Origin: Nitrospina sp. | Lineage (GTDB): Bacteria; Nitrospinota; Nitrospinia; Nitrospinales; JACRGP01 | Reading direction: 5' to 3' | NCBI GenBank assembly: GCA_024648695.1 | Contig: JACAVV010000025.1 | Span: 1-64,000, forward strand | Length of the DNA stretch: 64,000 nucleotides | Part shown: positions 3,129 through 50,102 of the stretch, one piece after another | How the letters are laid out: each line of letters opens with the position of its first letter | Position numbering within the stretch: the stretch's first letter is position 1 | Position numbers and translations under genes: made by a program | Notes under the pieces: model-generated | Databases searched by the model: none | What the model saw: only the letters and a program-made list of their open reading frames with translations | What the model was told of the DNA's origin: nothing

Positions 3129-4004
3129 TCAACCAAAACGTCCGGTGATGTAATCTTCGGTTTTTTCTTTTTCAGGATTTTGGAAAATTTTGGGAGTGGG
3201 CCCAAATTCCACCAACTCACCAAGAAACAGAAACGCCGTATAGTCCCCTACACGCGCGGCTTGTTGCATATTGTGAGTCACAATAACAATGGTGTATTTT
3301 TTCTTAAGGTTAACCATCAACTCTTCAATTTTGGCAGTAGCGATGGGGTCCAGCGCGGAACAGGGTTCATCCATCAAAATGACATCCGGTTGAACCGCCA
3401 ATGCCCGGGAAATACACAAACGCTGATGCTGTCCGCCGGACAGGGCCAACGCACTGTCATTCAACCGGTCTTTTACCTCGTCCCACAAGGCGACGTTTTT
3501 CAAGCTGTCTTCGACAATACCTTCCAGTTCGGCTTTATTGTTGTTGCCATGAATTCTGGGACCGTAAGCCACGTTTTCAAAGATGGTCTTTGGAAAGGGG
3601 TTCACCTTCTGGAACACCATGCCGACTTTCTTCCGCAATTGATTGACATCCAGGTCCAGGCTATTGATATCCTGACCGCCGATTTCAATAAGCCCTTCCA
3701 TGCGGGCTCCGTCGACCAGGTCGTTCATCCGGTTTTTACAGCGAAGCAAAGTGGATTTTCCGCAACCGGAAGGCCCGATGAAGGCAGTGATCCGGTGTTT
3801 GGGGATTTCCATACTGATGCCCTTCAGGGCCTGGGAATTGCCATAGTAGAAATTGAGGTCTTCAATCTTGATTTCAATTGGTTCCTCACCGTCCGTGATC
3901 GGAGATGATTTGCTAATAACTTTTTTCAAGGATTCAGTATCTTTCGCTTGTTGATCGGACACTATAGTTTTTCCAGTTTCAAATTTTATTCCATGTTTTA
4001 ACAT
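3129..4004 (-). CDS. pstB: Phosphate ABC transporter ATP-binding protein PstB
   Basis: The ATPase subunit of the high-affinity phosphate importer, at the inner face of the cytoplasmic membrane. It shows Walker [10 protein letters not shown], the ABC signature LSGGQHQR and Walker B with [12 protein letters not shown], plus the [12 protein letters not shown]-loop. A ~40-residue N-terminal extension precedes the ABC core that starts around [11 protein letters not shown], making it 291 aa against about 255 for the E. coli protein. It lies 13 bp after pstA and ends 14 bp before the phoU start. Confidence 0.96.
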
Positions 4005-4017
4005 TGATTTTCCCCTT

Positions 4018-5643
4018 TTACAAAGCAGAAACCGATAATTTTTTTCGAATTCTGTTTCTTAAGGCAATCGCCGCAAAGTTGAGAAAAAGCACGATCAGAA
4101 TAAGAAACAACGTGGTGGTGTATACCATGGGCCTGGCGGCATCTACATTGGGGGACTGGAATCCGACATCGTAAATATGGAATCCCAGGTGCATGAACTT
4201 TCTTTCAAGATGAAAGAAAGGAAAAAATGAATCTACAGGCAAGGACGGGGCCAGCTTCACAACACCGGTAATCATTAAAGGCGCAACTTCTCCTGCGGCG
4301 CGAGCCATGGCCAATATCAGCCCCGTTAAAATGGAAGGCATCACAGCAGGTAAAACAACCCTCCAGATAGTTTCAAACTTGGTCGCTCCCAAAGCCAGGG
4401 AAGCTTCCCGGATACTCCGGGGAACCGCGGCCAACCCTTCCTCCGTAGCAACAATCACCACCGGCACCGTCAATAAGGCCAGAGTTAAGGAGGCCCACAA
4501 GATTCCACCGGTGCCATAAGTCGGTGTGGGCAAAGCTTCGGGATAAAATATCCGGTCGATGGTTCCACCAATAAAATAAATGAAAAAACCGACGCCAAAC
4601 ACGCCAAAGACGATGGAGGGAACGCCCGCGAGATTGTTTACCGCAATTCGAACAATACTGACGAAGGTCCCTTGCTTGGCATATTCCCGCAAATAAAACG
4701 CGGCCAAAACGCCCAGGGGTGTGGCGAACAAACTCATGATGATCACCATCATGACCGTTCCGAATATCGCCGGGAAAATACCGCCTTCGGTATTGGATTC
4801 ACGCGGATCTTCCCACAGAAATTCCGCGAATTTCATGAAAAAGAATCCCCATTTATCAAAAAACCCAAAAGTGTTGGGCTGGTAAAAATGCACGATCTGT
4901 AATAAGGGAATGTTCTTTTCTTTGCCGTCTCCTGTGACTGCCAGAACAGATCCGTAAAGCTGGTTTCGCAATTGAACCAGCGCCGTTTCCTGTACCTTAT
5001 ACTCTGCAGTCAGGGCATCCAGTTCCTTCTTCACTTCAGCGATGGACGCAGGATCGGGCGAGGGATCCAGGTTTATCTTTTTCAATCGCAACCGGCTTTT
5101 TTCCATGTGGTGATTGATGACCCCGATTTCGCCTTTTTCTATGGATCGAATTTTTCCAGCGATTTTCTTGATTTCAGGTAAATGTTTTTCCAAAGCTTGC
5201 AATGCCGCGCTATGACCCTTTACCGGAGCCGTGCCTTCCTTGCCGCGAAACTCTTTAAACGTTCCAAAAAAGTCGCCCCACTCCAGACGTTCCATCACAA
5301 CAATATCTTCCGGATAGCTTTTTGAAACGATTTGATCGTTATCCACCCAAAGGAAATCAATGCCATAAATGTCGCGGTTGCCCTGCTTCACCTTAATGCG
5401 AGAGCGCAAAGGAGTTCCTTCTTTGACTTCAGTCGAAACCGGGATTTCCTCCTGCTCAATTACCTCACCAAAAAAACTACGGCCATCTTTTAACTGGATA
5501 GAAGCCACCTCACCTGGCCAGAAAAAACCCAGACCATTTTTGACCACCACAAAAAGCAGGGCGGCGACCATCAGCAGGGAAATGGACAGAGTCGCGCCTG
5601 TCAGCCAAATAAAAAAGTCACCCTTGGACCAGAATTTTTTCAC
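4018..5643 (-). CDS. pstA: Phosphate ABC transporter permease PstA, long form
   Basis: Membrane subunit of the Pst importer. Residues ~15-35 form one transmembrane helix. A ~230-residue hydrophilic, partly coiled-coil region follows (Lys/Glu-rich around residues 140-225), then the five-to-six-helix permease core with the EAA-type loop ([21 protein letters not shown]). At 541 aa it is far longer than E. coli PstA (296 aa). Long PstA forms with an extracytoplasmic insert are known, for example in Pseudomonas. The start overlaps the pstC stop by 4 nt, so translation is probably coupled. Confidence 0.92.
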
Positions 5644-45316: not shown

Positions 45317-46909
45317 TCATACCACCACATCCTTCCACTGAATACCGAATTTATCAAGGTATTTGCGGAGACGGTCGGAGTCATTGAAGCTTTTCTTTTT
45401 CTTGCGCGATTCGGCAAACAACCTTCGGCCTGCTTCGGGAAGGTTCTTGGCAGTCCGGCACACTTTTAAAACTTCTATCAATTGAATTTTATCAAACAGG
45501 TCGAGCGATTCGGCTTGTTTGCTTCCGATCAGCTCTGCCAGCAGGTCGTCATCGTTACGACTGTCCCCGCTCTTCCAGAATAGTTTCAACCGCTCGATTT
45601 CCTCTTCCACGATTTTAACATTGATACGCCCCCCGGACGCCAGGGTCGCCATGCGGTTGATGGCGGCGTTGAGGTCGCGGAAGTTGCCGCGCCATTGGGT
45701 GTCGGGTGCGATGGCAAATTGCAGAAACCGTTTGCGCGCTTCCTTGTTGAAACGAATGTAGATTTGATTGTCCCGCGAAAACTTTTCCAGTTCGTATTCG
45801 ATATTGGGTTCGATGTCTTCGCGCCGATCCTTCAGTCCGGGCAGAGTGAAAGTCCACACGTTGATGCGCGCCAAGAGATCTTCGCGGAATTTGCCTTCCT
45901 GAACCTGGCGGGACAAATCGTGGTTGGTTCCGGCGATCAACTGAAAATCGCTGGACGCTTCTTTGTCCGCTCCCACTGGCAGAAAACGTTTTTCTTCCAG
46001 GGCGCGCAGAAGCATGGCTTGCTCATCCACGCCCAGTTCACCGATTTCATCGAGAAACAACATACCCTTGTCTGCCGACTTCAACAAACCGGGCCGGTCG
46101 TCCAGAGCTCCTGTGAATGCGCCCTTTCTGTGTCCGAACAAAGTCCCCATGGCCAATTCTCCGCGCAAAGTGGCGCAGTTGACTTCCACGAAACTCCCTT
46201 CGATTTTCCGGCGCGACTGCTTAAGCTGGAATATATTGCGGGCCAGTTGCGACTTGCCGGAACCCGTCGGACCCATCAACAGGATAGGCGATTTGGAGAC
46301 CGCACCGACTTTCTCAATGCGTTCGATGAGCCGGTTAAAATAGGCGTTTCTGGTTTCGATTCCGGACTTTAAAAATGAAACCGCTTCCTTGTGCTCTTTC
46401 TGAAAGCGTGACGCTATACGGTCGTATTTCGACAGATCGAGGTCGATGATAGTGAAGTTGCCCGGTTCGGTGGCGTTTCTTTTCCCCGACGGCGACGTTT
46501 GGATAAGCCTGCCGGGAAGGTAATGCGCTTCAGTCAAAAGGTAGAGGCAGATCTGCGCCACATGGGTTCCCGTTGTGATGTGGATCAGGTATTCCTCCTT
46601 ATCCGTATCGAATGAATATCCGCGCGCGAAATCGAGCAGACTGGAATACACCTCCTCCAGATTCCACGGGTCACGAAACTCGATGCCGTGACTGCGCACC
46701 TCAGTTTCCGGCGAGATGTCTTTAATGTCTTCGATAACCTGATTAGCCAGGCGCCAGAATTTCTTTTGATGAAGTAATTCGAAGCGGTGAACCAGCAAGT
46801 CCTCGTGCTGGCACAAGGCAACCGTGGGACGCCAACGTTCCCAGCGTTTCACGGAAAAACCTTCATCGAGGACGGGTCCGAGCAGGCCAATCGCAATTGT
46901 CTTTTTCAT
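45317..46909 (-). CDS. rtcR: Sigma-54-dependent transcriptional activator RtcR
   Basis: Activator of the RNA-repair operon. 530 residues. The N-terminal ~180 residues form the RtcR/CARF-type sensor (IHITTGTHVAQICLYLLTEA). The AAA+ domain has Walker A GPTGSGKS, the sigma-54-contacting GAFTGA loop and MLFLDEIGELG. A C-terminal helical DNA-binding region completes it. In enterobacteria RtcR is thought to sense RNA fragments with 2',3'-cyclic phosphate ends. It is divergent from rsr across 202 bp. Confidence 0.95.
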   Translation of the reverse strand: MKKTIAIGLLGPVLDEGFSVKRWERWRPTVALCQHEDLLVHRFELLHQKKFWRLANQVIEDIKDISPETEVRSHGIEFRDPWNLEEVYSSLLDFARGYSFDTDKEEYLIHITTGTHVAQICLYLLTEAHYLPGRLIQTSPSGKRNATEPGNFTIIDLDLSKYDRIASRFQKEHKEAVSFLKSGIETRNAYFNRLIERIEKVGAVSKSPILLMGPTGSGKSQLARNIFQLKQSRRKIEGSFVEVNCATLRGELAMGTLFGHRKGAFTGALDDRPGLLKSADKGMLFLDEIGELGVDEQAMLLRALEEKRFLPVGADKEASSDFQLIAGTNHDLSRQVQEGKFREDLLARINVWTFTLPGLKDRREDIEPNIEYELEKFSRDNQIYIRFNKEARKRFLQFAIAPDTQWRGNFRDLNAAINRMATLASGGRINVKIVEEEIERLKLFWKSGDSRNDDDLLAELIGSKQAESLDLFDKIQLIEVLKVCRTAKNLPEAGRRLFAESRKKKKSFNDSDRLRKYLDKFGIQWKDVVV

Positions 46910-47111: not shown

Positions 47112-48725
47112 ATGGCTAACAAGACTTTATTCCCAACGCATTTAAATTCGTCGGAACCGAAACCGAATTGTAGAAACGAACACGGTGCGCCTGCTTATAA
47201 GTTTCCGGCCAAACATGCTTTGGCGCAGTATGCGGCTACCGGATGTTTGAATGCCACCTACTACGCAAGCGCGAAAGAGCAGTTGACCACTATTTTGAAT
47301 TTGTGTCAGGACATCGATTCAGAATTCATCGGCAAGACGGCTATTTACTGCCGGGAAAAAGGATACATGAAAGATGTTCCCGCTCTATTGTGCGCCGTGT
47401 TGTCGGTAAGCGACCCGGAAGTGCTGAAGCTGGTTTTTCCTCGGGTCATCGATAACGGAAAGCAGTTGCGAAACTTTGTACAGATCATGCGGTCGGGTGC
47501 CGTCGGACGAAAGTCTTTGGGTTCCTTGCCGAAACGCCTGGTGCGGAACTGGTTGGCCGCCCGAAAAGCTCAAACCCTGTTTCGCGACAGCATCGGCAAT
47601 CAGCCGTCTCTGGCGGATGTGATCAAAATGGTTCATCCACATCCGGAGTCCGAGGTGCGTTCTGTGCTCTACGCCTACTTGTTGGGCAAGGAACACGATG
47701 CTGAAAAACTGCCTGCTGTGGTCCGGGCTTTTGAGGATTATAAAGTAGGTAAAACCAACGAGGTCCCGGATGTTCCGTTTCAAATGTTGGCTTCTTTAAA
47801 TCTGGGGACGAGGGAATGGACCGAGATCGCTCGCAACGCGCCCTGGAAAATGACCTTAATGAATTTGAACACTTTCGCGCGGCATGACGTGTTTGGCACA
47901 AACCCAACTTCCGCTGGAATCTTTACGGATTGGGTGAAACGGACTCTGCGAAAACCATCGACGGAGATGGTGGACTTGATCGCCGATAGAATTCGCGACA
48001 CTCAGGCAATGAAGCTTGCCAGGATTTTTCCTTACCAGATCATGGTGGCCCATTGCATGTTGAACCCGGAGGTCCCGGAAACAATTCGAAAGGCTTTGTT
48101 ATCCGCAATGGAATCCGCGATTGAAAATGTGCCACGAATCAAAGGACAGGTTTATGTGTGCCCGGATGTTTCAGGATCGATGGCGTTTTCATCGATCACC
48201 GGACATCGAAAAGGGTCCAGCTCCGTGGTACGATGTATCGATGTCGCGGCCTTGATATCCGCGGCAATGGTGCGAACCAATCCAAACACCAAAGTAATCC
48301 CATTTGAACATGAAGTGGTGTCGATCAAACTGCCGGCCAAGGCGACGATTTTTCAGAATGCCAAACGGCTGGCCAGCATCGGCGGCGGTGGAACCAATTG
48401 TTCTGCGCCTTTGGCCTTGTTGAACAAGCGAAACTCGAAAGGTGATCTGGTGATTCTTGTTTCGGACAATCAGTCCTGGGTCGATTCATCGTCCCGACGA
48501 ACGGGTTTGTATCGGGAATGGATAATTTTCAAATCCCGAAACCCGAATGCGAAACTGGTGTGTTTGGATATTCAGCCTTACATGCATACTCAAATCCCGG
48601 AAGGTGAAGACGTGTTAAACGTGGGCGGATTTTCCGACCAGGTGTTTGAGGTCATAGCCGGGTTTGCGGAAAACGGTTTCAATCCGGGCCACTTTGTGAA
48701 ACGGATTGAAGAGGTTGAATTTTGA
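47112..48725 (+). CDS. rsr: Ro60 orthologue Rsr (TROVE-domain RNA-binding protein)
   Basis: Ring-shaped RNA-binding protein that holds Y RNAs and takes part in RNA decay and repair. 537 residues. The TROVE domain of HEAT-like repeats spans about 20-340. A von Willebrand A-like domain follows, with MIDAS motif DVSGSMAFS at about residue 352, GGGTNCSAPLALL and LVSDNQSWVD. Length equals that of bacterial and animal Ro60. It is followed by a Y-RNA-like segment and rtcB, and lies divergent from rtcR. Confidence 0.95.
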   Translation: MANKTLFPTHLNSSEPKPNCRNEHGAPAYKFPAKHALAQYAATGCLNATYYASAKEQLTTILNLCQDIDSEFIGKTAIYCREKGYMKDVPALLCAVLSVSDPEVLKLVFPRVIDNGKQLRNFVQIMRSGAVGRKSLGSLPKRLVRNWLAARKAQTLFRDSIGNQPSLADVIKMVHPHPESEVRSVLYAYLLGKEHDAEKLPAVVRAFEDYKVGKTNEVPDVPFQMLASLNLGTREWTEIARNAPWKMTLMNLNTFARHDVFGTNPTSAGIFTDWVKRTLRKPSTEMVDLIADRIRDTQAMKLARIFPYQIMVAHCMLNPEVPETIRKALLSAMESAIENVPRIKGQVYVCPDVSGSMAFSSITGHRKGSSSVVRCIDVAALISAAMVRTNPNTKVIPFEHEVVSIKLPAKATIFQNAKRLASIGGGGTNCSAPLALLNKRNSKGDLVILVSDNQSWVDSSSRRTGLYREWIIFKSRNPNAKLVCLDIQPYMHTQIPEGEDVLNVGGFSDQVFEVIAGFAENGFNPGHFVKRIEEVEF

Positions 48726-48730
48726 TTTAA

Positions 48731-48848
48731 GGAAAAGAATGCCAGTGAGACTACATGGTGCAGACAACGCGTCTACGAGGTTCGAATCCTCATACAACCC
48801 GGGTAGCTACCCGGAACCGTCTCATCTCTACTTGTCATTCCCTTTTCC
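48731..48848 (+). ncRNA. yrlA: Y-RNA-like (YrlA-type) noncoding RNA between rsr and rtcB
   Basis: Starts 6 nt after the rsr stop and ends 7 nt before the rtcB ribosome-binding site. Stems seen: GGAAAA-GAATG (48731-48741) with CATTC-cc-TTTTCC (48836-48848), a bulged terminal stem; GTGAGAC (48745-48751) with GTCTCAT (48819-48825, one G-U); AGAC/GTCT around 48762-48774; a tRNA-like T arm GAGG-TTCGAAT-CCTC (48777-48791); and CCGGGT-AGCT-ACCCGG (48799-48814). Bacterial YrlA RNAs have a Ro-binding stem plus a tRNA-like module and sit by rsr, as this does. The symbol is given by analogy. Confidence 0.8.
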
Positions 48849-48866
48849 ATATATAGGAGAAACATC

Positions 48867-50102
48867 ATGGCTTCTGAAAATTTCAACGTGATCAAGCCCG
48901 ATAAGGGCGTGCCTATAAAGGCCTGGACCCGTGGCGTGCCACTGGAACCGGAAGCCGAACAGCAGTTGCGTAACGTGGCGCAGTTACCCTTCATCTACAA
49001 ACACGTTGCGGTGATGCCGGACGTGCATTGGGGAATCGGTGCAACCGTCGGAAGCGTGATCCCGACCCTGGGAGCGATCATTCCCGCGGCCGTCGGTGTG
49101 GATATCGGTTGTGGAATGATGGCAGTGCAAACCGATCTCAACGCTCGGGACCTGCCGGAAAACCTGAAAGAGATGCGAAGGAACATCGAACAAGCCGTTC
49201 CACATGGCCGAACACACAACGGTGGACCAAGAGACAAAGGGGCCTGGAACAACATCCCGACCAGACAAAGAAACGTTTGGGAACGATTACGCGGCGTATA
49301 CGAGGGACTGTTGGAACGGCATCCGAAGTTACAAGGCCGAAGCGTTAACCACGTGAACCATCTTGGAACATTGGGTGGGGGAAACCATTTCATTGAAGTG
49401 TGTCTGGATGAATCGGACACCGTCTGGTTCATGCTCCATAGTGGATCAAGGGGGGTTGGAAACCGGATCGGAACCTACTTCATCGATCTCGCCAAGCAGG
49501 ACATGCGCCGATGGCATATCAACGTCCCGGACAAGGACCTGGCATATTTTCCCGAAGGCGCAGACCACTTCGACGATTACGTCGAAGCGGTGGAATGGGC
49601 TCAGGATTTCGCAATGACCAATCGTGACTTGATGATGCAGGCTGTCATCAAAGCCGTGTCGCTGACCAAGGGACTGCGAAAGTTCAAGGCGGAAGTGAAA
49701 TCGGTGAACTGCCACCACAACTATGTGGCGCGGGAAAACCATTTCGGGAAAAACATTCTCGTAACGCGTAAAGGCGCGGTACGTGCGCGAAAAAACGATT
49801 TGGGAATCATCCCCGGAAGCATGGGTGCGCAGTCATTCATCGTACGCGGACTGGAAAACGAGAACAGTTTTCATAGTTGCAGTCACGGTGCCGGACGCGT
49901 GATGTCGCGAAAAGCGGCGAAACGGAAGTTCTCTCTGGACGATCATGTAAAAGCCACAGAGAACGTTGAGTGCCGAAAGGACCTTGAGGTGATCGACGAA
50001 ACCCCCGGCGCTTACAAATCTATCCTTGACGTGATGAACGCGCAAAAGGACCTGGTGGAAATCGTTCATACCCTACGGCAGGTAGTCTGCGTGAAGGGAT
50101 GA
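48867..50102 (+). CDS. rtcB: RNA-splicing/repair ligase RtcB
   Basis: GTP- and Mn2+-dependent ligase that joins 2',3'-cyclic phosphate (via 3'-phosphate) and 5'-OH RNA ends. 411 residues (E. coli 408). Metal-site motifs AVGVDIGCGM and HLGTLGGGNHF, NCHHNY, and the guanylylated His in CSHGAGR at about residue 340. AGGAGA lies 6-7 nt before the ATG, directly after the Y-RNA-like stem. No rtcA cyclase gene follows. Confidence 0.97.
   Translation: MASENFNVIKPDKGVPIKAWTRGVPLEPEAEQQLRNVAQLPFIYKHVAVMPDVHWGIGATVGSVIPTLGAIIPAAVGVDIGCGMMAVQTDLNARDLPENLKEMRRNIEQAVPHGRTHNGGPRDKGAWNNIPTRQRNVWERLRGVYEGLLERHPKLQGRSVNHVNHLGTLGGGNHFIEVCLDESDTVWFMLHSGSRGVGNRIGTYFIDLAKQDMRRWHINVPDKDLAYFPEGADHFDDYVEAVEWAQDFAMTNRDLMMQAVIKAVSLTKGLRKFKAEVKSVNCHHNYVARENHFGKNILVTRKGAVRARKNDLGIIPGSMGAQSFIVRGLENENSFHSCSHGAGRVMSRKAAKRKFSLDDHVKATENVECRKDLEVIDETPGAYKSILDVMNAQKDLVEIVHTLRQVVCVKG

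Follow-up and report, generated by a model that had tools for sequence, protein, structure and literature searches.

A Y RNA beside rsr in a Nitrospinota RNA-repair operon, and a class of bacterial Y RNAs resembling a tRNA opened at the D loop

Among bacterial Y RNAs, YrlA carries a tRNA-like domain in which the Y stem replaces the anticodon loop and the remaining parts run in the order T arm, acceptor hairpin, D arm. This tRNA-like end is the part of the RNA thought to meet an effector, and what reads it is unsettled. Structurally, YrlA is a circularly permuted tRNA (PDB 6CU1; PMC11472068), and it is a substrate of both DusA and TruB (PMC8394870). In Deinococcus, a Y RNA tethers the protein Rsr to PNPase, and a role as a tRNA decoy has been suggested instead for YrlA (PMC7790460). 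In Salmonella, the genes are arranged as rsr-yrlBA-rtcBA, an RNA repair operon under the control of RtcR (PMC7790460).

Here, we analyze a 64,000-nucleotide stretch of DNA from Nitrospina sp. (contig JACAVV010000025.1; hereafter, the window), which contains a genuine bacterial Y RNA in this known type of RtcR-controlled rsr-yrl-rtcB RNA-repair operon (Table 1). The product of rsr aligns with D. radiodurans Rsr (PDB 2NVO) over residues 19-520 (E 8.8e-10), and its TROVE domain score falls below the cut-off. The spacer between the rsr stop codon and the rtcB ATG measures 141 nt. The Y RNA adjoins rsr, beginning 6 nt past the stop codon, and the 3′ end of its terminal stem lies 6 nt upstream of the rtcB AGGAG; no terminator-like T run was found downstream of this stem. 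As in the Salmonella operon, rtcR is divergent, rsr comes first, the Y RNA occupies the spacer and rtcB follows. Unlike in Salmonella, there is a single Y RNA, and rtcA is located away from the rtcB operon on another contig of the same genome (C1:152268-153218; L113:4227-5243), where neither a Y RNA nor rtcR was recognised beside it. The window genome also encodes PNPase. A scan for the sigma-54 consensus upstream of rsr gave TGGTACCAATCGTGAAT as the best site, which matches at 7 of 11 positions, a background level, so that no significant promoter emerged.

The first-pass annotation of this DNA had proposed a Y-RNA-like RNA in the rsr-rtcB spacer that includes a T arm of the tRNA type, and had considered what would follow if the host were Nitrospinota-like; the RNA, its T arm, its place and the Nitrospinota host are all borne out. 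Its suggestion that the compact rsr-yrl-rtcB layout might be new does not survive, since the layout is known from Salmonella (PMC7790460) and a related Nitrospinota locus, L004, has the complete operon, with rtcR, rsr, four Y RNAs, rtcB and rtcA. The closest relative of the window rsr comes from a Nitrospinota genome of the same order and is 62-64% identical. Only two of 77 Nitrospinota genomes, the window genome (G000) and G015, contain rsr, a distribution suggestive of acquisition by transfer or of frequent loss.

Table 1. Features of the window locus and of the Y RNAs used for comparison (window positions unless a locus is named).
Feature	Position	Strand	Basis or remark
rtcR	45317..46909	-	divergent from rsr; sigma-54 activator, RtcR (CARF-like) sensor domain; PF06956 285 bits, PF00158 172 bits
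rsr, Ro60 / Ro-sixty-related protein	47112..48725	+	PF25045 vWA_Ro60 67 bits
Y RNA, whole folded element	48731..48848	+	Ro stem; fold z -3.2; compensatory changes vs L004:3934-4040
Terminal stem, 5′ strand GGAAAA-GAATG	48731-48741	+	pairing probability 0.61-1.0
Inner Y stem, 5′ strand GTGAGAC (7 bp), then UACAU	48745-48751	+	same element in ~330 Y RNAs from 80 rsr loci
GGU right after UACAU, proposed equivalent of D-loop G18-G19	48757..48759	+	GG[T/A] enrichment
4-bp hairpin AGAC-AACGC-GTCT, anticodon-arm position	48762-48774	+	pairing probability 0.91-0.98; same place in L004
T arm GAGG-TTCGAAT-CCTC	48777-48791	+	sequence
Acceptor-like 6-bp hairpin CCGGGT-AGCT-ACCCGG	48799-48814	+	pairing probability 0.87-1.0
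Inner Y stem, 3′ strand GTCTCAT	48819-48825	+	complement of 48745-48751
CUUGUC, conserved 3′ side of Ro-binding bulge	48831..48836	+	in aligned Y RNAs and L004
Terminal stem, 3′ strand CATTC-cc-TTTTCC	48836-48848	+	fold prediction
AGGAG, ribosome site of rtcB	48855..48859	+	sequence
rtcB RNA ligase	48867..50102	+	PF01139 436 bits; PDB RtcB structures E 4e-36
D-loop-opened Y RNAs, often beside YrlA-type in the same array	L053:6696-6822, L078:7146-7276, L034:7002-7133, L009:8077-8201		strong covariation
D-loop-opened Y RNAs, often beside YrlA-type in the same array	L038:7070-7198, L046:6961-7089, L060:7332-7470		strong covariation
tRNA-Leu-like D-loop-opened Y RNAs	L027:6821-6955, L029:6871-7003, L052:6819-6960, L063:6823-6958, L070:7762-7897		long variable arm; GGCGGAA / TTGGTAGACGC
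Similar reduced Y RNAs	L006:6919, L015:7062, L024:6600, L046:7121, L026:6480		
T-arm Y RNA type without GG (GCGCTCTCTGGCACGAGCGGG-like hairpin)	L038:6934-7061, L039:7034-7160, L056:6812-6941, L059:6949-7075, L064:6663-6792		

The elements originally named in the spacer (a bulged terminal stem, a 7-bp inner stem, the T arm and a CCGGGT/ACCCGG hairpin) are all found where they had been placed, and the 4-bp hairpin ahead of the T arm is a further element that had gone unlisted. The conserved bulged Ro-binding stem, GAAUGC..ACUACA / ..UUGUC, is present. From the inner stem onward, the RNA runs through UACAU, GGU, the small hairpin, the T arm, 7 nt, the 6-bp hairpin and AACC before returning to the Y stem. 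The GG directly behind UACA (UACAUGGU) is kept in L004. A D stem, in which the strand after the GG would pair with the strand after the acceptor hairpin, is absent from the window RNA, where GGU/ACC is at most possible, and likewise from the fourth Y RNA of L004. Because of the 7 nt between the T arm and the acceptor-like hairpin, coaxial stacking of the tRNA type is not assured.

The fold of the spacer lies 3.2 SD below that of dinucleotide shuffles. Among 20,000 such shuffles, the paired Ro motif (GAATGC..CTACA with YTTGTC) never appeared, and 37 contained a T arm of four Watson-Crick pairs; a perfect 6-bp hairpin, which arose in 2914, is unremarkable alone. When the window RNA is folded alone, its three hairpins have pairing probabilities of 0.87-1.0 and its inner stem one of about 0.02, because this stem competes with an AUGGU/ACCGU pairing and with a shifted stem. 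The predicted fold of the free RNA thus sequesters the GGU and disrupts the inner stem, and the GAATG/CATTC pairing would shut part of the usual Ro bulge. The conserved form may be selected through Rsr binding.

The L004 locus, from the same order, has its four Y RNAs in one rsr-rtcB spacer (3594-4040). The fourth (3934-4040), nearest rtcB, shares the element order of the window RNA. Between the two RNAs, seven pairs differ in both partners, with none broken: two of seven in the inner stem, one in the first hairpin (GGTC-TTA-GACT in L004) and four of six in the acceptor-like hairpin (CCTTTG/CAGAGG in L004). Two further both-side changes in the T stem hinge on the register chosen. The first-pass annotation had named compensatory base changes in relatives as a check on the RNA, and these are what the comparison, which covers this one close relative, reveals; they show selection on the stems. 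The L004 array also contains a canonical YrlA, which scores 76.7 bits against the Rfam YrlA model (RF02553) and is distinct from the adjacent homologue of the window RNA.

The window RNA itself is not a member of the YrlA family. At the gathering cut-off, Rfam has no match in the window spacer; at relaxed thresholds, RF02553 gives 16.5 bits (E 0.83 on 351 bases) against a cut-off of 69. The alignment spans the full length of the model and puts the YrlA T arm on the first hairpin of the window RNA because the order of the parts differs. Like YrlA (RF02553; S. Typhimurium, 6CU1), the window RNA has a bulged Ro stem, a T arm, an acceptor-like hairpin, a position adjacent to rsr and a size in the range of about 115-130 nt. 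YrlA has a D arm after the acceptor hairpin, whereas in the window RNA only AACC follows before the Y stem; conversely, the window RNA has GGU immediately behind UACAU and an extra hairpin ahead of its T arm. The YrlA affiliation implied by the first-pass annotation is thus contradicted by both score and element order. The annotation had overlooked how the tRNA-like parts are ordered, and this order points to another circular permutation of tRNA.

To place this arrangement among other Y RNAs, 80 rsr loci were fetched, and about 330 Y RNAs were located in them by the Ro stem. They comprise 149 without a T arm, 136 with the YrlA order, 30 that are ordered differently (one of which, in L030, is YrlA-type on inspection), 16 reduced forms that include the window RNA, and two others. 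Where the order differs, GG comes after UACA and leads into a strand that pairs with the strand behind the acceptor hairpin. These strands are the two halves of a tRNA D arm, as in ..TAGCTCAG-[Y stem]-GGTAGAGC..; in a group that resembles tRNA-Leu and has a long variable arm, the halves read ..TGGCGGAA-[Y stem]-TTGGTAGACGC.. Because the D-arm halves flank the Y stem, these RNAs correspond to a tRNA opened at the D loop, with a short-looped anticodon arm kept. About 40 such D-loop-opened Y RNAs occur in the 80 loci, mostly in Alphaproteobacteria but also in Planctomycetota and in one Methylobacter. Mesorhizobium, as at L038/L060, is an example of a bacterium with both this type and the YrlA type in a single operon.

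A second tRNA-mimic topology therefore exists among Y RNAs, as shown here by an alignment of 14 D-loop-opened members, none of them from Nitrospinota. Six helices comprising 36 base pairs are supported: 94.4% of cells are paired, compared with 76.0% in shuffles, both-side changes occur in 28 of the 36 pairs, and covariation reaches 0.596 versus 0.226 in shuffles (0/500 shuffles). This support collapses once the partners slide by one column. Within the alignment, the D stem contributes a single covarying pair (A-U in 10 RNAs, C-G in 4); outside it, D stems of the types GGC/GCC, GCC/GGC and GCG/CGC were seen by inspection. R1, the covariance model built from this alignment, recovers members outside its training set at 64-126 bits, including those of the Planctomycetota loci L011 and L019 (for example, L039 at 126 bits, L073 at 111, L061 at 105 and L019 at 94). 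RF02553, by comparison, gives 72 and 63 bits to the YrlA-type RNAs of L038 and 31 and 30 bits to its D-loop-opened ones, below the cut-off of 69, and likewise leaves those of L009 below the cut-off. With a tRNA profile HMM, rotated (un-permuted) YrlA-type inserts placed the junction at about model position 32, in the anticodon; for most D-loop-opened RNAs the signal was too low, with at least 20 bits in L046 and L053 only. Literature text searches turned up no mention of the D-loop-opened form, but they missed the likeliest papers, so novelty is unproven.

The loci also hold other arrangements. One further type of T-arm Y RNA, without the GG, has a CGGGA..TCCCG stem round the T arm and a conserved GCGCTCTCTGGCACGAGCGGG-like hairpin. 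In L027:6703-6807 and L029:6741-6844, the T arm abuts the Y stem directly and no acceptor hairpin follows. A relative of Rsr is encoded on ten IMG/VR viral contigs (L124-L133), and several Y-RNA-like matches lie on four of these (L124, L125, L127 and L130); these phage-contig rsr loci have Y RNAs, of which the best three alignments include no clear D-loop-opened one.

The window RNA resembles the full-length D-loop-opened Y RNAs (L053, L078, L034, L009, L038, L046) in part order, Ro stem and kind of locus, with the hairpin, T arm and acceptor hairpin in the order of the class. Those RNAs have a D stem of 3-4 bp, an anticodon arm of up to about 7 bp and a T arm that abuts the acceptor; the window RNA lacks the D stem and the abutment. 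Since it keeps the order without the D stem, it is taken as a reduced member. The GG offers a further point of comparison. Within 6 nt of TACA, GG[T/A] occurs in 29 of the 43 T-arm Y RNAs that were not assigned to the YrlA type, compared with 26 of the 128 assigned to it (p 3e-8) and 21 of the 133 that lack a T arm (p 5e-10), p-values that are indicative because related sequences are not independent. The sorting behind these counts made no use of the GG but was rough: some D-loop-opened RNAs were tallied as YrlA-type, and a few YrlA-type RNAs with Leu-like D arms fell among the 43. In L004, R1 gives the homologue of the window RNA 50.3 bits, above the 39.9 of the canonical YrlA in the same array. 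The window RNA itself receives 20.3 bits, contributed by GGU and the Y stem; the alignment skips its tRNA-like part. Among genome-wide R1 matches in Nitrospinota, the eight loci checked, including that of the window genome, are tRNA genes, and the G015 array is the only match recognised at an rsr locus. The small hairpins of the reduced Y RNAs did not fall into register in MAFFT alignments. Sequence comparison leads us to infer that the window RNA belongs to the D-loop-opened Y RNAs as a reduced form, an assignment made by its part order and its L004 homologue rather than by its own score.

We consider it probable that the spacer encodes a co-transcribed Y RNA that combines an Rsr-bound stem with an imitation of a D-loop-opened tRNA devoid of the D stem. 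The main competing account, in which the RNA is an ordinary YrlA that has lost its D arm, with the hairpin ahead of the T arm as an enlarged variable arm and the GGU as a chance occurrence, is unlikely but deserves real weight. RF02553 does align along its full length, if at 16.5 bits, the anticodon-loop-opened form is the commonest T-arm type in the surveyed loci (136 RNAs), and a canonical YrlA is present in the array of the related genome. Yet the GGU after UACAU is kept in the fourth L004 RNA, GG is strongly enriched in T-arm Y RNAs without the YrlA order, and the L004 homologue stands beside a canonical YrlA while remaining distinct from it. Moreover, this homologue was not listed in an RF02553 search at E up to 10, and R1 ranks it above the YrlA.

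That the element is instead the 5′ leader of rtcB, controlling its translation or stability as part of the mRNA and not as a free Y RNA, seems improbable. The short distance from the stem to the ribosome site and the want of a terminator-like T run after it would suit such a leader, but the features that are conserved belong to the Rsr-binding stem of Y RNAs, with no tie to the ribosome site, and related loci carry several such RNAs arrayed in this spacer. As for a decayed tRNA gene, which the T arm with its consensus T loop might recall, we give it almost no credence: the order of the parts and the flanking Ro stem are unlike a tRNA, ARAGORN finds no tRNA here, and the compensatory changes together with the Ro stem refute a tRNA gene or pseudogene.

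For the D-loop-opened reading, a course of events can be proposed by homology and analogy. The Y RNA would be transcribed together with rsr and rtcB, and induction of the operon would presumably follow the known RNA-repair circuit. By homology to known Y RNAs, the Rsr ring would bind the bulged double-stranded end (GAAUGCC..GACUACA / ..CUUGUC), and the GGU and the T loop could form a contact like the tRNA elbow, stacked on the acceptor-like hairpin. The RNA might then tether Rsr to an effector that reads the tRNA-like end, for which PNPase is a candidate by analogy with Deinococcus and Salmonella. The D. radiodurans Rsr-PNPase complex (RYPER) likewise has its Y RNA beside the Rsr gene and a proposed tethering role, but the upper part of that Y RNA differs from that of the window RNA. 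Alternatively, the RNA could serve as a tRNA decoy during the response of RtcR, RtcB and RtcA to broken tRNAs.

This operon layout has been described before, and the interest of the locus lies in its rearranged tRNA mimic. Full-length relatives in other phyla suggest that the order of parts in the window RNA is that of a tRNA opened at a loop other than the one used in YrlA. With modest confidence, we lean toward the view that tRNA has been permuted in two ways among Y RNAs, at the anticodon loop and at the D loop, with both kinds often neighbours in a single operon, and that the window RNA is a stripped-down example of the second kind, retaining the GG, the T loop and the small and acceptor-like hairpins. 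Because an entire group of Y RNAs escapes the Rfam YrlA model, tallies of tRNA mimics among Y RNAs that rely on this model are too low. The second permutation keeps the T loop, the GG and the acceptor but has the Ro-binding stem at the D loop instead of the anticodon end, and so provides a natural experiment: the elbow and acceptor common to both topologies are what an effector should need, and the reduced Nitrospinota form narrows this requirement further.
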